DNA of 27,905 nucleotides from positions 1 through 27,905 of the IMG/VR virus record IMGVR_UViG_3300046536_000107; one strand, 5' to 3'. The notes under the pieces were generated by a model. That model was given only the letters and a program-made list of their open reading frames with translations, was not told where the DNA came from and ran no database searches. Of the stretch, positions 2,174 to 27,905 are shown piece after piece. This stretch comes from a virus. Within the stretch, counting starts at the first letter, position 1. Every line of letters starts with the position of its first letter. Both the position numbers and the translations under genes were made by a program.

Positions 2174-3604
2174 ATGCCCTTTGACCAGCGTCAACCCCGC
2201 CGGATGCGCGCCTCTATCTATGTGCGCCTGTCCAACGCCGCGACCGAAACGAACCTGAGTAAGGACGGCATGGCTAAAGACCTGCACGCCCTTGCCCGGA
2301 CTCTCAACGCCGACGTGATCGCCGTTCACATCGACGACGGCATATCCGGTTCGGTCCGCGACCGGCATGAGTTCCTTGAGTGGCTGCGCGACGGCCGCGA
2401 GGGCAAGGCTGACATGATCCTTGCTTGGTCAGGCGACCGGCTCACCCGCGAGGGTATCAACGCCGCCGCCATGGTCCTTGACGTCGTCGAGGGCAAAGAC
2501 ACGACGACAGGCAAGGTTGTGCGCCCCGGCGTGCGCTTCGTGTCCTACGACGACCGACTCGACAGTGAGGAAGGCGACGCGTTCCGCTGGCGCTTCGTTA
2601 TCGCCGCCGAGGTCGCTCGCAGCGAGCGACAGCGCATCGTGGCGCGCATGGAAGCACGCGCCCGCCGCATGCTCGACCAGGGGCGCCACGTCGGCCGCGT
2701 CCCGAACGGCTACCGCTTCGACCCTGAGAACCCCGGATTCCTGATCGTGGTTCCCGAAGAGGCCGCCGTCATCAAGGAAGCGGCGCGGCTGATGCTCGCC
2801 GACGTCAAGCCGTCGCAGGTCGCCCGATCGCTGAACGCCGCCGGGGTGACAACCATCATGGGCGCTCCGTGGACGCGCTCAACGTTGGTTCGCAGCGTCA
2901 CGAACCTTGCCAACGCTGGGGAGCCGTTGCGCCCCGGCACGCCCGCACGTGAGGCCATCCTCTCGTATGCCGATGTCACTGAGCTGCGCCGGAAGTTCGC
3001 TCCGGAGAAGACCGGAAAGCGCGGTGGCGCCCGCTCGCCTCGCCAGTCGAAAGCGATGCTCGCCGGTCTTCTCCTGTGCCATGACTGCCAACTGCCGATG
3101 CGCTCGACGTCCGGCCGCTATGTGTGCATGACCGCAGCGGACGGCCGCACGTGCAGCGGCGCCGTTTCCGTGACTAAGGAGATTTCCGAGACCGCCGCCG
3201 AATCCGCCTACCTTCAGCGCTGGGGCCGTGTCGCCGAGACGGTCGCCGAGGTGACCATGCCCGGCGCCGCCGAGCGCGACCGCTTGGAGCGCGAGCACGC
3301 CGCTATCATGGCGCGGCTCGCCGAGAAGCCCACGGCCGCCGACTTCGAGGCGCTGCAAGCCGTTGCCGCTGCCCGCTCGGTATTCGACGAGACGCCGCCC
3401 GAGCGTGTCGTTCGCCGCCGAACCACGGGCCGCACGCTGGCCGACGCGTGGAAGGCAGCAACGACCGAGGACCGGCGCGACCTGTTGGCCAACGCGTATG
3501 AGTACGCCATGTGCTACCCGCGTGGCGTCTCGCCCCGACTCGTGTTCACCGAACGGCCCGAGGTGGCCGAGCTTTCCGTCGACGAGTTCGGCGACGTCAT
3601 CTGA
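2174..3604 (+). CDS. int: Large serine integrase
   Basis: This 476-aa site-specific recombinase should integrate the phage by joining attP to a host attB through a covalent serine-DNA link. The resolvase domain begins at once: IYVRLS places the nucleophile at Ser20 with Arg18 beside it, and the RLTR and SERQRI stretches are typical of the catalytic domain and helix E. A recombinase domain follows (about 170-290). A zinc ribbon has Cys302, Cys305, Cys318 and Cys327, then a coiled-coil region (about 350-400). Length is in the usual range for the family. The gene is a single unit with its own leaderless-type promoter and terminator. No excision partner is recognisable in the window. It differs clearly from the phiC31 integrase as I recall that sequence. 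Confidence 0.93.
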   Translation: MPFDQRQPRRMRASIYVRLSNAATETNLSKDGMAKDLHALARTLNADVIAVHIDDGISGSVRDRHEFLEWLRDGREGKADMILAWSGDRLTREGINAAAMVLDVVEGKDTTTGKVVRPGVRFVSYDDRLDSEEGDAFRWRFVIAAEVARSERQRIVARMEARARRMLDQGRHVGRVPNGYRFDPENPGFLIVVPEEAAVIKEAARLMLADVKPSQVARSLNAAGVTTIMGAPWTRSTLVRSVTNLANAGEPLRPGTPAREAILSYADVTELRRKFAPEKTGKRGGARSPRQSKAMLAGLLLCHDCQLPMRSTSGRYVCMTAADGRTCSGAVSVTKEISETAAESAYLQRWGRVAETVAEVTMPGAAERDRLEREHAAIMARLAEKPTAADFEALQAVAAARSVFDETPPERVVRRRTTGRTLADAWKAATTEDRRDLLANAYEYAMCYPRGVSPRLVFTERPEVAELSVDEFGDVI

Positions 3605-3615
3605 CGACGCCCTCG

Positions 3616-3645
3616 AAAGGCCCCCGAACCAATCGGGGGCCTTTT
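3616..3645 (+). terminator. Intrinsic terminator after int
   Basis: AAAGGCCCCCGA (3616-3627) and TCGGGGGCCTTT (3633-3644) pair over 12 bp with a 5-nt loop, and the T-run continues to 3645. A canonical terminator 11 nt after the int stop. Confidence 0.9.
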
Positions 3646-3660
3646 TGTTGCAAAGATCGC

Positions 3661-3682
3661 GTTTCCCCCCGGTCGACATGTA
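3661..3682 (+). promoter_or_regulatory. 22-bp C-run/ACATGTA box, copy A
   Basis: GTTTCCCCCC, five variable bases, then ACATGTA. The same arrangement occurs at 5801 and 27729. It lies after the int terminator and 36 bp before the first gene of the next operon. A TAGTAC sits near where a -10 would be if TTTCCC acted as a -35 (about 17 nt). It is a promoter or operator candidate for the early-type operon. Confidence 0.6.
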
Positions 3683-3718
3683 TCTAGTACACCCCCGACG
3701 ACCAGGGAGGAAACAGAA

Positions 3719-3919
3719 ATGGATCAGGAAACCGCCGAACACCGCGCGTGTCGCACGCGCACGCCCGAGGAAGACCGCGCCATCCGCGCGGCGACCTTCA
3801 ATCACGCGATGCAGAACCTCGGCCGCATGCTCAGTGGTCGGTTCGCTGTCACGCCGATTCCGGCGCAACAGACCGCCCGCCCGTGCGGCTGCGGTCAGTG
3901 CAAGTGTGGTGGCGCATGA
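3719..3919 (+). CDS. Small protein with C-terminal cysteine cluster
   Basis: This 66-aa protein starts at an ATG with GGGAGGAAA about 8 nt upstream, a very good ribosome site. It is mostly polar and helical. It ends in CGCGQCKCGGA, giving Cys56, Cys58, Cys61 and Cys63, a compact cluster that could bind zinc or another metal; Cys11 is isolated. No family is recognised. It is the first gene of the operon behind box copy A, and its stop overlaps the next start (ATGA), so the two are translationally coupled. Small Cys-rich early phage proteins often bind host proteins, but that is only a suggestion here. Confidence 0.7.
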   Translation: MDQETAEHRACRTRTPEEDRAIRAATFNHAMQNLGRMLSGRFAVTPIPAQQTARPCGCGQCKCGGA

Positions 3920-4215
3920 TCGACGCCGCTGCAATCTCGGTCGACGTGAACAAGGCTGTGACCTTCGTCCGCGCGGAAGCACTGGAAAGGGCGCGCGAGT
4001 TCGTCGAGGGCTTCGCGCCCACGAAGAACGCCCGAGGCTACTCGGACGGCACGATCAGGCCCGACGAGCGTGTAAAGCTGATTATGACGGTCGCCGATTG
4101 GCTGCTGAACGACCAGGCCGCCATCACACGCGCCGTCGAGGAAACCGCCGCAGCGCTCGACGCCTACGGCTATGACTCGGCCGCGTCCTACGTGCGAAGG
4201 CGGATCGAGGCATGA
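3916..4215 (+). CDS. Hypothetical protein, 99 aa
   Basis: The chosen start ATG overlaps the previous stop (ATGA), with GGTGG just upstream. Longer in-frame starts would run through the Cys-cluster gene and are rejected. The protein is helical and charged (for example RAEALERAREFVEGF, then RRRIEA at the end). No membrane segment or known motif is visible. Its own stop overlaps the next ATG, so it is the second gene of a coupled series. Function unknown. Confidence 0.65.
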   Translation: MIDAAAISVDVNKAVTFVRAEALERAREFVEGFAPTKNARGYSDGTIRPDERVKLIMTVADWLLNDQAAITRAVEETAAALDAYGYDSAASYVRRRIEA

Positions 4216-4571
4216 CCGTCATCCCAGACCCGCGCGAGGAGAAGCTACCCGCGTGGGCTCGCCGATAGATCGCCGCGCTGCGCGCCGAGGCCGCATACGA
4301 GCGCGCCCGCGCCGCTACGGCCGTCGAGGACGCGAGGCGCGTCCGGCAAGGCACGAACCCCGACGAGTCGTCGGCCATCCTGCACCCCTACGACGAAGTA
4401 CCCGTAGGGCTCGGCCCTGACGCGCGCGTCCGATTCAAGCTCGGCCGGCACAACTGGGCGGACGTCCGCGTGAACGAAACCGGCAACTCAATCGACGTCA
4501 CCGGCGGTCGAACGCTCCTCATCCGCCCGCAGTGCGGCAACGTCGTCACGATCGCCTCGGAAGGCTGGTAA
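4212..4571 (+). pseudogene. Amber-interrupted actinophage protein gene
   Basis: The frame begins at an ATG that overlaps the previous stop (ATGA). It reads 18 codons (MTVIPDPREEKLPAWARR), hits TAG at 4266-4268, then stays open to a TAA at 4569-4571. The full frame would give 119 residues. The downstream part has a helical stretch (IAALRAEAAYERARAA) and a beta-rich end (VRFKLGRHNWADVRVN, ending ASEGW), a layout I have seen in intact small actinophage proteins. TAG is one change from CAG (Gln), which suits the gap between RR and IAAL. It may be a point mutation, a base-call error, suppressor readthrough, or a downstream restart. The rest of the frame is not decayed, so the lesion is recent or tolerated. 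Confidence 0.7.
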
Positions 4572-4574
4572 CGC

Positions 4575-5222
4575 ATGCCCACGGCACATCACCTCATCGG
4601 CCTGACCGGACACGCCCGCGCTGGTAAGGACAGCGTCGCCGCGTACCTCGTCGAGCACTACGGGTTCGGGCGCGTGGCGTTCGCCGACGCGCTGCGCGAG
4701 GCCGCTCTCGCCCTCGACCCGATCATCGACTACGGCCACGGCCGGCCGTTGATGCGTTGGGAGCGGCGCACCGGCCTGCACGGTCGTCGCTACGTCCGCT
4801 TGTCCGAGTACGTCGAAGCGTTCGGATGGGAGGAAGCAAAAGAGGTCCCCGAGGTCCGCCGCACGCTCCAGCGCTACGGCGTCGCGATCCGTGAGATGGA
4901 CCCGGAATTCTGGATTCGCACCGCCCTCGCGCCCATGGCGTACATGTCGCGGCCCGTGGTCGTGACTGACGTGCGTTTCCCGAACGAGGTCGACGCCGTC
5001 CGCAGCCGAGGCGGTCTGTTCGTCCGAGTTCGCCGGCCTGGCGCGACCGGGAACGGGCACATAAGCGAGCACGCCGTCGACGACATCGCGGCCGACGTCG
5101 ACATCGACAACACGGGCACGCTGGCGGATCTCAGGGACGCTGTCGAGCGCCTGATCGTCGAGCCGTACAACCTGCCGCGCGTCGCCCGCTACAGCGTCCT
5201 CGGTGCTGTCAGGGGGGTCTGA
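4575..5222 (+). CDS. Deoxynucleoside monophosphate kinase
   Basis: The 215-aa product should phosphorylate dNMPs to dNDPs with ATP, supplying precursors for phage DNA synthesis. The P-loop is GHARAGKDS (Gly12 to Ser20), the form seen in T4 gene-1-like kinases. Further matches to that family are an early FADALREAA segment, a central region with YVRLSEYVEAFGW, and VVVTDVRFPNE (around residue 133), which precedes the lid and base-binding part. The ATG is preceded by GGAAGG at about 10 nt. The stop overlaps the next ATG (TGATG). It is the only clear nucleotide-metabolism gene in the window. Confidence 0.85.
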   Translation: MPTAHHLIGLTGHARAGKDSVAAYLVEHYGFGRVAFADALREAALALDPIIDYGHGRPLMRWERRTGLHGRRYVRLSEYVEAFGWEEAKEVPEVRRTLQRYGVAIREMDPEFWIRTALAPMAYMSRPVVVTDVRFPNEVDAVRSRGGLFVRVRRPGATGNGHISEHAVDDIAADVDIDNTGTLADLRDAVERLIVEPYNLPRVARYSVLGAVRGV

Positions 5223-5800: not shown

Positions 5801-5822
5801 GTTTCCCCCCGTCAGACATGTA
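5801..5822 (+). promoter_or_regulatory. 22-bp C-run/ACATGTA box, copy B
   Basis: GTTTCCCCCC, GTCAG, ACATGTA, then CCGTATAGAG. GTATAG lies about 17 nt after TTTCCC, so this copy looks most like a promoter. It is about 100 bp upstream of the HNH gene. Confidence 0.6.
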
Positions 5823-20125: not shown

Positions 20126-22813
20126 ATGTTCGAGTTCACCGTCGAGGTTCGTGACAAGACCCTCGCGCGCGTAGGTCAGATCCTCCCGGAAGACCTGAAC
20201 CTGACCGTGAACGAGACGTTCAACAACGTCGGTTCGTGGACGCTCGTCCTCGCCAACGGTCACCCGATGGTGCCCACGCTCCGAACGCCGGGCGCGGGCA
20301 TCATCGTGACACGCGTGGACACCGGCGCTGTCCTGTTCTCCGGGCCGGTCGTAAGCCCGTCCCTCGAAGTATCGACCGCCGCCCCGGACGGTACCGTCAC
20401 GATCTCCGGGGTGTCCGACTCGGTCATTCTCGCCGACCGCCTCGCCTACCCGTCGCCAACCATCGGCGACGCCACCGCGCAGACCTCTTCCAACGACACC
20501 CGCACCGGCATCGCCGAAGACCTGATGTTCGCCTACGTGGATCAGAACATCGGCCCCTCCGTGATCCCGCCCAACATCCTGTCTGGCGACGCCTCGACCT
20601 TCGAAACGAGCATTGGCGGGTGGTGGGACTCAGTCAATGCCGCCCTGTCGCACACCAGCGCGCAGGCGCACAGCGGTACAAACTCCCTTACGGCCGTCTC
20701 CTCAACCGCCGGCGACATGGACGCTGCGAGCTGCGCCGCCGCGAACATCACGACGTCAGGATGGGTCGCCGGGCCCGGCGACCACTGGGTCGCGTCCGCA
20801 TGGGTCCGGGCCGCCGTAACCCCCCGTTCGGTGTTGGCAGGTTTGCAGTTCTTCAGCGCGGCCGGTGTGTCGCTGGGCACGTTCTACGGAACAACCATCA
20901 CCGACAGCACGTCCGCGTGGACGCAGGTGTCTGTCACCACGACGGCGCCCGCAAGCACGGCCTATGTCCGCATGCACCTCGTGTGGCAAACGGCCGCCGC
21001 GAGCGAGACCCATTACGCCGACGATATCGTCGTTCAGCGTGGTTACGGCCGTCGCGACCCGCGCCTGTCGCTCGGTACGAATGGCCACCGTGGCGCCACC
21101 CTTACGAAGTCGCCGCGCTTTCAGGCGCTCGGCGCGCTGCTGAACGAGATAGCTACCATCGCCGACTACCCGAACGGGACTGGTCAGCCTCTCGGCTTCC
21201 GCGTCGTTCAGAACGGCGCGACGCTTCAGTTCCAGACCTACGCCACCAACGACATGTCGGCCGGGGTCCGGTTCGATGTAGAGAACGGAACCCTCGCGTC
21301 GAGCAAGGTCGCCACGGCCGCGCCGACCGTCACGCGGACGATTGTCGGCGGACAAGGCGGCGGCACTGACCGGCTGATAGAAGAGGTCACCAGCACAGAC
21401 AGCCTGACCGCTGAGACCTCGTGGGGTCGTCGCATTGAGCAGTTCATAGACCAGCGCCAGACCAACGACCCCGCGCAGCTAACGGCCGCCGGAAACTCCG
21501 CGCTGGCGCAAGGTGGGCTGTCGCAGTTCGCAATGCAGCTCACGCCCGCCGATGACACGGTGTGGGTATACGGCCTCGACTACGGCCTCGGCGACATCGT
21601 GACCGTGGTGGTTCGCGACGGCGGCGGCGACCAACTCGCCGCGACCGAACTCGCGACCACCGTGACGGGCTACATTCTTAAGGCCGACTCCACGGGCGTG
21701 CGCTTCGGCGCGCTGCTAGGCCAGCCCTACGGCGACCAACTCGCGCAGTTCTCCGCGCGCCTGTCGAACCTCGAAACGGCCGGCGCGACCAGTTCCGGAA
21801 CTGGCACCAGCGCAACCCTCGCCGGGCTGTCCGATGTTGTCCTAACCACCCCGTCAACAAACGACACGCTCAGCTTTGATGGCGCCACCGGTAAGTGGTT
21901 CAACTCGACCGATTTGAGTTTGGGCGCTCCGTCCAACACGGCCGCCGTGATCAACGTCGCCCGGAACACCCTGACCGACGACGCCATCGCAGTTCAGGGA
22001 TCGGGAGACGGGAACGGCCGGTTCTTCCTCGCCGTGTCCGGTCAGCACCGGTGGAGCGATGGAACCAACAGCTCCGACACGCGCCTCTATCGCTCGGCCG
22101 CCGCGACTCTGACCACTGACGGCGATTTCAACGTCGCCGGGAACCTGACCGGTGCTGGCGCTCCGATGCAGCGCCAGATATTCACCGCTAACGGCACCTG
22201 GACGAAGCCCGCCGGCGCGAAGTGGGTCCGCCTCGTCGCCCTCGGCGGCGGCGGGGGAGGCGGCGGCGCTGGCGCAGCCTCGGCCGGCAACTCCACCCAC
22301 GCCGGCGGCGGTCAGGCGGGAAGCTACTCCGAGTCGTATCTCGCCGCGTCCACCTTCTCAAGCACCGCGACCATTGTGATCGGCGCCGGCGGTACGGGCG
22401 CCACCAGCGCCGCGAACGGCGGCGCCGGCGGCACAACGACCGTGGGCGGGACGATCGTTACCGCCCCCGGCGGCAATGGCGGTCTTGCGTCCACCACGAA
22501 CGCGAGCGTCTACGGGATTCAAGGCGGTAGCGGCGCCACGGCCGGAACCGGTCAGCTCGCCACCGCCGGCGCGCCCGGCGGCTACGGCTTCGGCGGTCCG
22601 GCGTTCGGCACCGGTGGCGCCGGCGGTAGCTCGCACTACGGCGCGGGCGGCGTCGGCGGCGCAGCCTCGACCGCAAACCAGGTCGCGGCGGGAAGCGCGG
22701 CAACTGGCCGAGGCGCGGGCGGCGGCGGGGGAGCGGGCGCCGCGACGACTTCGACAGTCGCGAACGGCGGCGCAGGCGCCGGCGGCCTGGTCATCATCGA
22801 CACCTATTTCTAA
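20126..22813 (+). CDS. Tal-like tail protein with carbohydrate-binding and glycine-rich parts; receptor-binding candidate
   Basis: 895 aa from the ATG at 20126. Residues 1-140 and about 306-590 look like a ReqiPepy6 Gp37-like tail-associated hub (start MFEFTVEVRDKTLARVG; later LSQFAMQLTPADDTVWVYG, then GDIVTVVV). Between them, about 150-305, lies a jelly-roll-like insert (NILSGDASTFE..., HSGTNSLTAVSS, ending ETHYADDIVVQRG) of the CBM4/9 type. About 600-710 holds tail-fibre segments (LAGLSDVVLTTPSTNDTLSFDG). The end, about 715-895, starts QIFTANGTWTKPAGAKWVRL and is very Gly-rich, like glycine-rich tip domains of phage adhesins. It probably binds the host wall polymer. The ORF extends upstream in frame, but that part overlaps the Dit gene. 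Confidence 0.85.
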   Translation: MFEFTVEVRDKTLARVGQILPEDLNLTVNETFNNVGSWTLVLANGHPMVPTLRTPGAGIIVTRVDTGAVLFSGPVVSPSLEVSTAAPDGTVTISGVSDSVILADRLAYPSPTIGDATAQTSSNDTRTGIAEDLMFAYVDQNIGPSVIPPNILSGDASTFETSIGGWWDSVNAALSHTSAQAHSGTNSLTAVSSTAGDMDAASCAAANITTSGWVAGPGDHWVASAWVRAAVTPRSVLAGLQFFSAAGVSLGTFYGTTITDSTSAWTQVSVTTTAPASTAYVRMHLVWQTAAASETHYADDIVVQRGYGRRDPRLSLGTNGHRGATLTKSPRFQALGALLNEIATIADYPNGTGQPLGFRVVQNGATLQFQTYATNDMSAGVRFDVENGTLASSKVATAAPTVTRTIVGGQGGGTDRLIEEVTSTDSLTAETSWGRRIEQFIDQRQTNDPAQLTAAGNSALAQGGLSQFAMQLTPADDTVWVYGLDYGLGDIVTVVVRDGGGDQLAATELATTVTGYILKADSTGVRFGALLGQPYGDQLAQFSARLSNLETAGATSSGTGTSATLAGLSDVVLTTPSTNDTLSFDGATGKWFNSTDLSLGAPSNTAAVINVARNTLTDDAIAVQGSGDGNGRFFLAVSGQHRWSDGTNSSDTRLYRSAAATLTTDGDFNVAGNLTGAGAPMQRQIFTANGTWTKPAGAKWVRLVALGGGGGGGGAGAASAGNSTHAGGGQAGSYSESYLAASTFSSTATIVIGAGGTGATSAANGGAGGTTTVGGTIVTAPGGNGGLASTTNASVYGIQGGSGATAGTGQLATAGAPGGYGFGGPAFGTGGAGGSSHYGAGGVGGAASTANQVAAGSAATGRGAGGGGGAGAATTSTVANGGAGAGGLVIIDTYF

Positions 22814-24630: not shown

Positions 24631-24924
24631 ATGGACTCAACGATTACCGCCGCCATCATCGCGACCCTGCCAGGCGCCGCGACACTCGTCCTCGCCGCCC
24701 GCAACCGGCGCCACACCGCCGTAATCCGGGCCGAGGTCAAGAACTCCCACACGACCAATCTCCGCGAGGACGTCGACAGAGTGCTCGACAAGCTTGACGC
24801 CGTGATCGATGGTCAGGCGCGCCACGACTCTGAGATCTCCGGGCTCCGCGCTGACATGCGCGTCGAGCGTAAGGAACGCCTCGCCCTCGCCGAACGCCTT
24901 AAGGAGGCACCGCCCCATGAGTGA
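24631..24924 (+). CDS. DUF2746-like membrane protein; holin candidate
   Basis: 97 aa. One N-terminal transmembrane segment (about residues 5-23; ITAAIIATLPGAATLVLAA) is followed by the RRHTAVIRAEVKNSHTTNLREDVDR stretch (in parts) typical of the DUF2746 family found beside lysins in actinophages, then a charged coiled coil to the end. It starts 3 nt after the tail gene and overlaps the lysin start by 8 nt, so it belongs to the lysis cassette. It may be a holin, a holin partner or a spanin-like factor. Since a two-TM r1t-type holin is encoded at the end of the next frame, an accessory role is as likely as the main holin role. Confidence 0.72.
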   Translation: MDSTITAAIIATLPGAATLVLAARNRRHTAVIRAEVKNSHTTNLREDVDRVLDKLDAVIDGQARHDSEISGLRADMRVERKERLALAERLKEAPPHE

Positions 24925-26641
24925 TGCAGGACTCGACTATGCATGGGCACACCCCGACCTGAACACCGCATGGAACTCGGGCTACCGGTTTATGTGCCGC
25001 TACCTGTCTTGGCTCCCGAACGGGAAGGTCATCACAGTCGCGGAGTATCAGCAGCTCCTCGCGAAGGGCTTCGAGGTCGCCCTGAACTGGGAATATGGCG
25101 CCAAGGACCAGTTGGGCGCCGCCGCGTCCGGCAAGCTGCACGCGGCCGAGGCCGTCCGCCAGGCGCGCGCGCTCGGGTACCCGGCAGGGAAGACGATCTA
25201 TTTCTCGGCCGACTTCGACGCGACCGAGGCGCAGCAAGCCCCGATCAACGCCTACATGGCAGCCGCGAAGGCGATTCTTCACGCGGCCGGCTACCGCATC
25301 GGCATCTACGGGGGCTTCTACGTCGTCAAGCGCGCGTTCGACGCGGGCGTCACTGACGACGGATGGCAGACCTACGGGTGGTCCGGCGGTCAGTGGGACT
25401 CGCGCGCTGCGATCCGCCAGGACCACAACGAGATTCAGTGCGGCGGCGCGGACTGCGACCACAACACCCGCGTAGGCGCCACCTACCTCGCCGGCGGGCA
25501 CTCGGCCGCCCCGGCTCCGCCCCCCCCGGCTCCGCACCCGCCTGCGCCGACGCCGCCCCCGCCCTCGACCGCGCGGACCTACACGGTCCAGAGCGGCGAT
25601 TCGCTGTCGGGCATCGCGGCGAGGTTCGGGATCGGGGATTGGCACACGCTCTACAACGCGAACGTGCGTGTCATCGGCTCAAACCCGAACCTGATCCGCG
25701 CGGGTCAGGTGCTCACGATCCCGGGGGCCTCCGCGCCGGCCCCGCCGCCCCCGCCGGCTCCCGCTCCGCCCCCGCCGCCCCCGACGACCACGAAGAGTGT
25801 CCCGAAGACCTACACGGTCCAGAGCGGCGACAACTTGTCGGCCATCGCGGCGAAGTTCGGGATCAGGGATTGGCACACGCTCTACAACGCGAACGCGCAC
25901 GTCGTCGGTTCGAACCCGAACCTGATCCGCGCCGGCGAAGTGCTGACGATCCCTGGTCAGTTCGTGACCGTCACGGTCAAGGCCGCCGCTGCTCCAATCG
26001 TGCGCGCCGTCGCGCCGCCGGCCGTCACGCCCAACGTTGCGCCGCCGCCTCCCCCGCCGCCGCCGCCGCCGGCCCCGGTCGCGGTCGAGGCGCCGGCCCC
26101 CGCTCCGCCGCCGGCCCCGGTCGTAGTCGAGGCGCCGGCCCCCGCTCCGCCGCCGCCGGCTCCCGCCACGCCAGTCGAGAGCCCGGCTCCGCCGCCGGCT
26201 CCAGCCCCCGCAGCGCCCGCCGAGGCACCTGCCCCGGCCCCTGTGCCCGCGCCCGCCAGCGAGGCGCACAGCGCCCCCTCATGGACCGACGAGATTACGG
26301 CCGCCGTGGTCCGGGCCGAGGCGATCATTCACCACCTGCCCACCGTCGAGGTTCCCGTCGTTCCCGACGACCTCGCGCCCGCACCGGAAGGAAGCCCCCG
26401 CGCTATGTTCACCCGCGCCTATTGGCAGTACATCGCAGAGCGTTCGATCAAGACGTTCGTTCAGTCCCTCGTCGCCCTGCTGGGCATCGGGCAGACGAAC
26501 ATGATCTCCGTCAACTGGTCGAACATGGCGGCCGTCGCGGGTAGTGCGGCGCTCGTCTCCGTGCTGACCTCGATCAGCTCGCTGTCGGGCTCAGCGGTCG
26601 TCGAGCCGGTCGACACGCACCCCTCGGCCAACCTCAAGTAA
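24917..26641 (+). CDS. Endolysin: DUF1906 catalytic domain, two LysM, Pro/Ala linker, fused r1t-type holin
   Basis: 574 aa, ATG with AAGGAGG upstream. Residues 1-200 are a DUF1906 glycosidase-like domain (start GLDYAWAHPDLNTAWNSGYRF; TIYFSADFDAT and YRIGIYGGFYVVKRA mark the barrel strands). Two LysM wall-binding domains (about 221-270 and 298-348) each start YTVQSGD and end VLTIPG. A long Pro/Ala region follows (about 355-460). The last 78 residues (497-574, from MFTRAYWQYIAERSIKTFVQS) have the sequence and two hydrophobic segments of an r1t-type holin. Lysin and holin are normally separate genes, so this is a fusion or a locus with an internal start. A dispersed box lies at 26027 in the linker. 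Confidence 0.88.
   Translation: MSDAGLDYAWAHPDLNTAWNSGYRFMCRYLSWLPNGKVITVAEYQQLLAKGFEVALNWEYGAKDQLGAAASGKLHAAEAVRQARALGYPAGKTIYFSADFDATEAQQAPINAYMAAAKAILHAAGYRIGIYGGFYVVKRAFDAGVTDDGWQTYGWSGGQWDSRAAIRQDHNEIQCGGADCDHNTRVGATYLAGGHSAAPAPPPPAPHPPAPTPPPPSTARTYTVQSGDSLSGIAARFGIGDWHTLYNANVRVIGSNPNLIRAGQVLTIPGASAPAPPPPPAPAPPPPPPTTTKSVPKTYTVQSGDNLSAIAAKFGIRDWHTLYNANAHVVGSNPNLIRAGEVLTIPGQFVTVTVKAAAAPIVRAVAPPAVTPNVAPPPPPPPPPPAPVAVEAPAPAPPPAPVVVEAPAPAPPPPAPATPVESPAPPPAPAPAAPAEAPAPAPVPAPASEAHSAPSWTDEITAAVVRAEAIIHHLPTVEVPVVPDDLAPAPEGSPRAMFTRAYWQYIAERSIKTFVQSLVALLGIGQTNMISVNWSNMAAVAGSAALVSVLTSISSLSGSAVVEPVDTHPSANLK
25580..25957 (+). repeat. Tandem LysM duplication
   Basis: The two LysM coding segments repeat with a period of 231 bp (first copy from about 25580, second from about 25811). 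They share long exact stretches, for instance the bases for YTVQSGD and for DWHTLYNAN. Both copies are near-identical at DNA level, so the duplication is recent or is kept similar by recombination. Confidence 0.85.
26027..26038 (+). promoter_or_regulatory. Dispersed 12-bp box, copy 7 (in the lysin linker)
   Basis: Exact ACGCCCAACGTT in the Pro/Ala linker coding part, encoding TPNV. The nine following bases match those after the copy in the portal gene. Confidence 0.5.
26405..26641 (+). CDS. Possible separate r1t-type holin from an internal start
   Basis: An in-frame ATG at 26405 has GGAAGGAAG (26386-26394) 10 nt upstream, a convincing ribosome site inside the lysin frame. Translation from it gives 78 aa: an amphipathic start (MFTRAYWQYIAERSIKTF), a first membrane segment with SLVALLGIG, a polar turn with Asn and Trp, a second segment (AAVAGSAALVSVLTSISSL) and a short polar tail. 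This equals the usual length and layout of r1t-type holins, which make the membrane hole that releases the lysin. It is the same reading frame as the lysin, so both a fusion and a free holin may be made. Confidence 0.6.
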   Translation: MFTRAYWQYIAERSIKTFVQSLVALLGIGQTNMISVNWSNMAAVAGSAALVSVLTSISSLSGSAVVEPVDTHPSANLK

Positions 26642-26710: not shown

Positions 26711-26746
26711 TTGCGATAGCTAGGAGTCGCGCCCTACGATAAGCGC
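26711..26746 (+). promoter_or_regulatory. Promoter of the 26747 gene, leaderless type
   Basis: TTGCGA (26711-26716) and TACGAT (26735-26740) are 18 nt apart, and the -10 ends 6 nt before the ATG. There is no Shine-Dalgarno next to the ATG. The arrangement copies that of the integrase gene. Confidence 0.5.
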
Positions 26747-27385
26747 ATGCCTACTAAGCGTCAGATCGAAGCGGAAATTAAGCGGCAACTCCGCGCCATC
26801 CGGGCACTTCCGGATGATGACCGCGAACGCAAGACGGCGTTGCTGCGCGACCTCGCTGAGAGCACCGTCGAGTTTCGCGAACACTTCGCGCTTAGCTCCG
26901 GTGACGTCGACTGGGCCGGCCGAACGGGCGCCTACCGTGCCGAGATCGCAGAACTGTACTTAGAGGCGGGCTTCCCGCAGGCCGAAGCGAAGGCCATTCA
27001 GAAACTTACGCGCTATCACATCGCCAACACTCTCCGTCAGCGTCTGTCCACCGACGAAATCGAGGCGATAGGGCTGCGCGCCGAGTCGCCGCGCGAACGT
27101 CAGACCGAGCTGCGCTCGCGCACGGCCGCTATCGTCGCCGCCGCCGCCGTGTCTGCCGTCAGCGCTGGCGTCCCTGAGACGGCCGAGGAGCGCATTGCGT
27201 ACCTGCATGGTGTCCTTGCCACCCTCAACGAGGTCGGGCCGCTCAGCGAGGCAGAGAGGGGCAGCAAGGACTACGTTCCGCACTACCGCACCGCTAAGAC
27301 GCTGCTGGACCAGATTGTTCGCACTGCCCGCAACATCGCGAAGACGTGGCCAGCGCCAGAGGGCGAAGACCCCACCATCGCGTGA
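26747..27385 (+). CDS. Unrecognised 212-aa protein; candidate lysogeny regulator
   Basis: I cannot assign a family. The protein is soluble, mostly helical and strongly charged. It has a basic start (MPTKRQIEAEIKRQLRAI), a central part that could include a helix-turn-helix (about 64-105: AEIAELYLEAGFPQAEA, KLTRYHIANTLRQRL), an Ala/Val helix (about 127-140), and a C-terminal part with VPHYRTAKTLLDQIVRTARNI. It stands alone between a late terminator and its own terminator, with a leaderless-type promoter like that of int. It is followed by iteron-like repeats. Repressor genes often show such isolation and leaderless messages. This is inference from context; a replication function is an alternative because of the iterons. 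Confidence 0.6.
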   Translation: MPTKRQIEAEIKRQLRAIRALPDDDRERKTALLRDLAESTVEFREHFALSSGDVDWAGRTGAYRAEIAELYLEAGFPQAEAKAIQKLTRYHIANTLRQRLSTDEIEAIGLRAESPRERQTELRSRTAAIVAAAAVSAVSAGVPETAEERIAYLHGVLATLNEVGPLSEAERGSKDYVPHYRTAKTLLDQIVRTARNIAKTWPAPEGEDPTIA

Positions 27386-27571
27386 GGGTCGCAAAGGGTC
27401 GCAGGGTCGCACGAGTAGGGCCGCAGGGTCGCAGAGGCGCACGCCTTGCGACCCTGTTTTTTGTCTGCACGGTCACATAGTGTCCTAGTTTCTTCCTGTC
27501 CGGATCGGGTGATGGCGCCCGCCTATGCCCGTTTTGGAGGGTCGCAAGGTCGCAAGGGTCGCAGGGACGCA
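27386..27571. repeat. GGGTCGCA iteron cluster
   Basis: Exact GGGTCGCA at 27386, 27396, 27404, 27426, 27539 and 27556; an inverted exact copy at 27447-27454; one-base variants at 27418, 27547 and 27564. Further inverted copies lie at 27700-27707 and, diverged, at 27709-27716. Several are directly adjacent at 8-10 bp spacing. The region has no supportable gene. Iterons of this density mark replication origins or regulator binding regions. Confidence 0.75.
27424..27462 (+). terminator. Intrinsic terminator after the 26747 gene
   Basis: CAGGGTCGCA (27424-27433) and TGCGACCCTG (27447-27456) form the stem, extended by AGGC/GCCT around a GCAC loop, with T6 at 27457-27462. The stem is built from two inverted iteron copies. 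Confidence 0.85.
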
Positions 27572-27610
27572 CGGCTGCCCTCTCGCGATCCGCCGCCGCG
27601 CCGCCACCGC

Positions 27611-27675
27611 TTCCCCCCTTTTTGTAATTCGGACATTCCTACTCTCTCTTCTCTTTTTATATAAGTTCTTACATG
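27611..27675. other. AT-rich, polypyrimidine tract in the iteron region
   Basis: About 65 bases with very low GC for this genome: a C/T-rich run on the + strand ending in TTTTTATATAAG (27654-27665). No good -35 is found for the TATATA on either strand. Next to iterons, such a tract could be the melting region of a replication origin; it could also be a promoter region for a phage-specific factor. Confidence 0.5.
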
Positions 27676-27728
27676 CGCCGGCCTGCTGCGCCCGCGATTT
27701 GCGACCCTTCCGACCCTGCTCGGCGCGG

Positions 27729-27750
27729 GTTTCCCCCCACTCGACATGTA
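27729..27750 (+). promoter_or_regulatory. 22-bp C-run/ACATGTA box, copy C
   Basis: GTTTCCCCCC, ACTCG, ACATGTA, with CCCCGTACA after it. It lies 45 bp before the GTG of the exonuclease-like gene. CCCGTACAA (27752-27760) and TTGTACGGG (27772-27780) form a perfect inverted repeat right after the box, whose right arm overlaps the gene's ribosome site (GGGAAGG, 27778-27784). Confidence 0.6.
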
Positions 27751-27795
27751 CCCCGTACAACAGTCCGCCCTTTGTACGGGAAGGCAGCTCTACCT

Positions 27796-27905
27796 GTGAC
27801 AACGCCCAAAGTTCGTACCCTGACCCGAGGAAACTCCCGCTACTACGTCCACCCGGACACGGGCGCAAAGGTTCCGGGCGTCACCTCGGTCCTCGGTATG
27901 CTCCC
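27796..27905 (+). CDS. Probable phage exonuclease, 5' part only
   Basis: A GTG with GGGAAGG about 11 nt upstream opens a frame that runs off the window after 36 codons. The visible part includes SRYYVHPDTGAKVPGVTSVLGML. This resembles the N-terminus of Cas4/RecB-like PD-(D/E)XK exonucleases of actinophages, where a short hairpin with a Gly-Val-Thr-Ser-Val phrase precedes the nuclease core. The catalytic residues lie outside the window, so the call is tentative. Its place behind box copy C suggests it opens an early DNA-metabolism operon. A one-mismatch dispersed box (ACGCCCAAAGTT, 27802-27813) lies over codons 3 to 6. Confidence 0.5.
   Translation, partial: MTTPKVRTLTRGNSRYYVHPDTGAKVPGVTSVLGML

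Follow-up and report, generated by a model that had tools for sequence, protein, structure and literature searches.

The locus studied here raises the question of what a dense array of short repeats does where it separates a repressor-like gene from the first early gene of a phage. The window, i.e., the whole stretch of DNA that was analysed, is a viral record of 27,905 bases whose gene order is of the actinophage type, with a serine integrase (2174), a terminase (7777), a portal (9884), a capsid (12705), a tape measure (16660), and a lysis gene (24809). At the right end, the lysis gene is followed by ORF 26747, by the repeats, and by the 5' end of an exonuclease gene (27796-27905, plus strand) that is cut by the contig end. 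The exonuclease is a homologue of Sue2 gp28, BT1 gp1, and phiC31 gp1, and its GTG start at 27796 opens a match to Sue2 gp28 in the right frame. The virus is a phiC31/AZ-type temperate actinophage infecting soil bacteria. Its lysis gene (24809-26641) is a single ORF of 610 aa combining an Rv2525c-like glycoside hydrolase, LysM domains, and an r1t-type holin domain, an endolysin-holin fusion. As the earlier note had it, the repeats lie in non-coding DNA, bounded by the stop of ORF 26747 (27385) and the start of the exonuclease (27796). Mechanical ORFs do cross the region, but no family convincingly matches the one at 27525 (best E 0.2).

The repeats are strongly clustered. Eight of the nine exact copies of GGGTCGCA in the window, counting both strands, are found inside 27386-27707 (6 direct, 2 inverted), and whole-window shuffles contain on average 2.2 copies (sd 1.5, maximum 6). 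This octamer is not palindromic. When up to one mismatch to AGGGTCGCA is allowed, the window has 22 matches, 12 of which lie within the 333 bp of 27385-27717 (9 direct, 3 inverted). An initial estimate of about ten direct and two inverted copies was thus close, the additional inverted copy being the one at 27709-27717, which has one mismatch. The array consists of three blocks. The left block (27385-27455) has five direct copies on the plus strand within 27385-27433, starting at 27385, 27395, 27403, 27417 (one mismatch), and 27425. The middle block (27538-27571) has four direct copies on the plus strand, in tandem every 8-9 bp (27538, 27546, 27555, and 27563), and one AGGGACGCA is present in the window, at 27563. 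The right block (27700-27717) has two inverted copies on the minus strand, one exact (27700-27708) and the above-mentioned one at 27709-27717. Between the last direct copies of the middle block and the first right-hand inverted copy there is an AT-rich pyrimidine core (27617-27675), a candidate DNA unwinding element. The AT-rich tract previously noticed beside the repeats is real, since 27618-27667 is the 50-mer of lowest GC content in the window (30%), the next lowest places being at 42%. Our automatic array finder listed nothing AT-rich in the window and missed the arrays of phiC31 and DrManhattan, because it requires copies within 85 bp of the core.

The same word is found in close relatives. 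Four IMG/VR records (L194, L196, L211, and L040) have the same gene pair and the same array, with a c-like protein that is 60-69% identical and a single GGGTCGCA cluster per record. Two further matches, in L104 and L030, derive from the contigs of L194 and L196. The alignment of these relatives shows that the iterons, including the five direct copies of the left block, and most of the right block are kept, as is the core motif TTCnGACATTnCTACTCT, conserved in all five aligned members; the spacer between the left and middle blocks has diverged. Apart from the clusters, G004 has a single stray copy of GGGTCGCA, and G002 has a partial match of 23 bp. The octamer also occurs in IMG/VR contigs of about 37-42% GC where printed (L026, L034, L032, L075, L089, L119, and L097), which have inverted GGGTCGCA arrays mostly spaced by 11 bp. 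In L032 and L097 the array is near a gene encoding a PD-(D/E)XK nuclease, and L032 also has PolA and a UvrD-like helicase. The arrays of these AT-rich contigs are possibly convergent. The pattern scan of viral contigs returned at least 120 stretches, and many single matches are expected by chance.

At a larger evolutionary distance, the place and the anatomy of the element are kept and the word changes. We identified a related exonuclease in 252 phage records, phiC31-type phages included. Upstream of the orthologous exonuclease we find a common design made of forward iterons, an AT-rich pyrimidine core, and inverted iterons. This anatomy is present in Sue2, Reedo, Shady, phiC31, BT1, TG1, and many IMG/VR relatives, and the element is flanked by a repressor-like gene on one side and by the exonuclease, the first early gene, on the other. 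The consensus iteron words align with each other (AGTGACGAA, ATGACGAA, AGTGACA, AGGGACGCA, and AGGGTCGCA), and from this comparison the arrays look like one orthologous site whose specificity drifts from phage to phage. The shared anatomy was deduced from sequences inspected by eye and from self-BLAST. Exact 8-mer counting, which is too crude for diverged iterons, placed only 15 of the 82 regions upstream of exonucleases above all 40 shuffles. There is no such array in the region printed ahead of the exonuclease in L160 and L164, nor before the exonuclease of Zeta1847 and Dismas. The earlier note had named a lack of conservation of the repeats in relatives among the results that would refute its reading. 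The exact word is kept in the four close relatives, whereas the architecture is kept far more widely. Another group of contigs, L157 and L161-L192 (mostly phages of 55-60 kb), has a large palindrome ahead of the exonuclease, the arms of which resemble CCAAACT/AGTTTGG and flank centres of the TAACGCGTTA type; a P4-type primase is mostly absent from the stretch examined.

Most of these phages have the array twice. Self-BLAST detected a further copy, with 73-92% identity across 90-138 bp, in 13 of 16 phage records, phiC31 included. It starts between -3 and +154 bp from the integrase stop in all 11 of these 13 that have an annotated integrase. Of 400 random 230-bp control queries, 14 gave a comparable repeat. 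In phiC31, BT1, and TG1 the paired arrays are located before gene 1 and after int (phiC31, L232: about 21660-21760 and 40416-40547; one array each at 40703-40809 in BT1, L231, and at 39131-39235 in TG1, L244). The best match of every second copy among the 13 first copies is the first copy of its own phage (13 out of 13). Hence, both sites of a given phage appear to evolve in concert, which is what a single phage protein recognising the two would lead one to expect. Shady, Zeta1847, and Dismas lack a second copy by self-BLAST. In Shady, inspection by eye reveals a degenerate copy after int, and Zeta1847 (L248) has 12 dense GGCGGACG-type units directly after the integrase (38546-38738). The window has one enlarged copy and no visible pair; we did not find a second array after its integrase, at 3560-4620.

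A candidate for the protein that reads the iterons is encoded in the early region of relatives. Sue2 and BT1 have clear P4-family primase-helicases there (TIGR01613 and/or D5_N), with homologues across the group. The window family has a divergent relative of 500 aa, weakly matched by the PHROG "DNA primase" (E 6e-6), which is present in three of the four records of the family, the fourth record being short; the window's own gene lies outside the contig. This helicase is 32% identical to the Zeta1847 primase over 496 aa. Zeta1847 (two records) is the only phage of the phage collection that shares the helicase type of the window family, and a large array is common to both. Dismas encodes a P4-type primase and has no array according to the automatic finder, and we found no array in the 9.0 and 20.5 kb examined of L258 and L259, two distant relatives of the 500-aa helicase. 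In L194, phiC31, and Sue2, the helicase gene lies 3-5 kb downstream of the array. The C-terminus of the window family's helicase differs from that of the majority. The structure model of the 500-aa protein is poor overall (mean pLDDT 50), too poor for a structure search, and the C-terminal part, where most blocks have a pLDDT of about 70-88, shows the order helix-strand-helix-helix-helix-strand-strand, which is winged-helix-like. According to PMC7581432, proteins of the D5/Primase_Cterm kind use their C-terminal domain to bind the iterons of origins; SCCmec Cch2 recognises, and requires, AAGTG repeats, and SaPI Rep recognises the iterons of its own origin. The common phage iteron contains AAGTG. 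Literature searches on the SaPI, P4, and phiC31 origins also gave background passages in PMC7145576, PMC7302621, and PMC5311408.

We compared iteron similarity with protein identity using Mantel tests on 19 AZ-like and 8 phiC31-like loci, having dropped L135 (no clear iteron) and L152 (truncated primase). The phages of 55-60 kb (e.g., L157-L192) were left out because they have another type of array and mostly no P4-type primase in the stretch examined. Iteron similarity correlates with the identity of primase residues 735-791, in the C-terminal region (rho 0.28, p 0.015, k=5, n=19). The partial test on the whole primase gave 0.25 (p 0.02) at k=5 and 0.10 (p 0.20, not significant) at k=4, and there is a second covariation peak at residues 421-478. 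These values suggest a weak covariation between iterons and primase.

These results make it rather probable, in our opinion, that the element is an iteron replication origin of the P4/D5-helicase kind, which in the window family is enlarged and combined with a terminator. The P4/D5-type primase-helicase of each phage would bind the iterons, most likely by means of a winged-helix-like domain at its C-terminus. It would form rings on the blocks that face each other, the AT-rich core in the middle would be melted, and replication would start just ahead of the early operon. Most relatives have one copy before the exonuclease and another after the integrase, an arrangement that would be in line with an origin in two parts. 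An origin had already been proposed in the earlier note, with the product of ORF 26747 as a protein to be tested for binding. The first part gains from the conservation of the position of iterons and AT-rich core while the word drifts, and from the P4/D5-type primase-helicases encoded by these phages; the second part is not supported (see below). Some observations speak against the origin reading. GC skew lends it no support, as it does not switch at the site: in Sue2 the cumulative skew declines without a break across it, and the medians to the left and right are near zero over 80 loci. The weak covariation, the different C-terminus and poor model of the window family's helicase, the lack of an array in Dismas, L258, and L259 in the searches described above, and the distance between array and helicase gene also count against it, as does the absence of the window's own helicase gene from the contig.

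The element resembles several known systems without being identical to any. Origins of iteron plasmids (RepA/TrfA/pi type) have tandem iterons beside an AT-rich tract, as seen here, but we saw no RepA/TrfA/pi-type Rep gene and the phage iterons flank the AT-rich tract in opposite orientation. In the satellite phage P4, the alpha protein binds ori and crr, two separate cis regions with iterons of about 10 bp. The phages have in common with P4 a primase-helicase of this family and two separate cis regions of short iterons, whereas their pairs are near-duplicates at fixed places. According to PMC7581432, SaPI origins and the putative SCCmec Cch2 origin also have multiple short iterons, and the phages encode an initiator helicase of the same family; the AAGTG core of the Cch2 site is present in many of these phages. 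However, the SaPI origin is directly downstream of rep, which is not the case of the phage array with its distance of 3-5 kb to the helicase gene. In addition, the phage iterons face each other across the AT-rich core, most phages examined have two copies, and their iterons are putative binding sites. The open literature that we searched, a search that did not extend to the phiC31 genome paper, contained no description of a replication origin for the phiC31 group.

The main rival explanation is a regulatory boundary element: paired arrays at the borders of transcription units would bind a phage protein that controls early promoters or insulates late from early genes, with no role in replication. 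We regard this as unlikely, even if the surroundings of the array give it some appeal. Both copies are intergenic, and one and the same element, CTGGCGGACTCCTCTAGTGTCC, comes after each of the two arrays of Sue2. In the window, 12 bp separate the end of the array from a promoter-like repeat, TTTCCCCCC-N2-TCGACATGTAnCnnGTACA, located ahead of the exonuclease (27730-27759, plus strand), copies of which with 0-7 mismatches are also present in the four close relatives. An inverted repeat, CCCGTACAA-N11-TTGTACGGG (27752-27780), the only such site in the window, overlaps this element. However, promoter-like elements also occur without arrays, both in the window (the same element at 3662 and a copy with 4 mismatches at 5802) and in Liebe (several copies). 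Furthermore, an operator leaves unexplained why an AT-rich core lies between facing iteron blocks.

A second rival, to which we give a low probability, regards the repeats as the arms of stems that end the lysis/repressor transcript. It builds on an intrinsic-terminator-like hairpin at 27424-27462 (plus strand), where the last iteron of the left block (27424-27433) pairs with the first inverted iteron (27447-27456) in a perfect 10-bp stem followed by six T (60-nt fold of -31.6 kcal/mol), a feature that the earlier note does not mention. Our consensus terminator scan, whose loop limit is 8, did not list it. The stem is preserved in L194, L211, and L196, the last with the paired change GGGCCGCA/TGCGGCCC; T runs are weaker in these relatives, and L040 folds otherwise. 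Yet, this is the only place within the array that has a GC-rich stem with a U run, and a terminator needs neither the direct copies at 27538-27571, nor the AT-rich core, nor the right block. It would also leave unexplained the phage-specific word common to two distant copies. The hairpin fits within the origin reading as an addition of the window family, in which the left end of the single enlarged array would double as an intrinsic terminator, ending upstream (late/repressor) transcription just before the early promoter-like repeat at 27730.

The gene preceding the array suggests a third rival. ORF 26747 (26747-27385, plus strand) encodes a protein of 212 aa of the phiC31-repressor (c-like) family, a candidate immunity repressor that has no convincing match in Pfam, PHROGs, or NCBIfam. 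An HMM built from 62 members of its family finds the ORFs at the repressor position of phiC31-like phages (best E 1e-13; Shady gp23 1.4e-5), and hhalign matches this family to the BT1/TG1-type c family with 97% probability (96% in reverse) over 100 columns. The BT1 c protein corresponds to the Pfam family "Streptomyces phage repressor protein c". The structure model of the ORF 26747 protein is confident (mean pLDDT 89.6) and consists almost entirely of helices. In BFVD, it best matches a protein of an Arthrobacter phage and, weakly, a protein of Streptomyces phage Shawty and the immunity repressor of Nesbitt; there is no match in the PDB at E<=0.001. Hence, the description of this gene as a candidate regulator can be made more precise: it belongs to a family with homology to the c repressor of phiC31, and the protein is probably an immunity-type repressor. 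Homologues are found in 94 phage records (Arthrobacter, Curtobacterium, and Microbacterium phages), in the gene before the exonuclease (e.g., Sue2 gp27). They are annotated as hypothetical among the records listed and are likely phiC31-repressor-family proteins.

Could the array be the operator of this repressor, given that gene and array adjoin? We find this very improbable, because the operators of the family appear to be scattered palindromes that are separate from the array. The dominant scattered palindrome of phiC31 and BT1 is CTACTCACGTGAGTAG, with about 15-16 palindromic copies in each genome, distinct from the array. We take it to be the known repressor operator, CIR. The window has a scattered palindrome of its own, CGCCCAACGTTGGGCG, with 12 sites within 3 mismatches (445, 1265, 1430, 7004, 11355, 13633, 15893, 26028, 26652, and others) versus 0-2 in 10 shuffles. 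Some of these sites are far from the next gene start, perhaps inside genes. A variant with 4 mismatches, the operator-like palindrome CGCCCTACGATAAGCG, lies directly before ORF 26747 (26730-26745). The four close relatives also have the CGCCCAACGTTGGGCG palindrome, as well as an equivalent palindrome 17 nt before their ORF 26747 homologue. We thus propose CGCCCAACGTTGGGCG as a candidate repressor operator like the CIR of phiC31. CIRs and arrays are both repeated short intergenic words in the same phage family, but CIRs are scattered single palindromes and the array consists of one or two dense clusters of another word; in the window, 8 of the 9 exact copies are in one cluster. Moreover, iteron similarity does not track the identity of the c-like protein once the primase region is controlled for (partial about 0). 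It follows that the repressor probably does not use the array as its operator, and we no longer regard the ORF 26747 protein as a likely binder of the array. The least probable explanation is a partition, packaging, or recombination site: the copies are paired and one is always beside the integrase where this is annotated, but there is no partition gene among the annotations examined, the place beside the exonuclease fits none of these functions specifically, and the annotated attP of BT1 is upstream of int while its array is downstream.

If the element is a replication origin, the observations on the phiC31/AZ superfamily can be assembled into a broader picture, which we put forward as a tentative one. 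Twin arrays bracketing the early region would form a two-part replication control and evolve in step within each phage. Each phage would have an iteron code of its own, recognised by the C-terminal part of its primase-helicase, so that replication specificity would diverge as fast as immunity specificity. In the window family, the system would have shrunk to a single enlarged array with a second function as a terminator. The phage family concerned is of wide use, as phiC31 and its relatives are standard tools. In phiC31 itself, the candidate origin sites are at about 21660-21760 and 40416-40547 and the candidate initiator is gp9a. With named sites, a named initiator, and an iteron code that changes phage by phage, the question of the phiC31 origin becomes directly testable. 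Finally, a large family of "hypothetical proteins" in phages of Arthrobacter, Curtobacterium, and Microbacterium gains a likely function as phiC31-type repressors.
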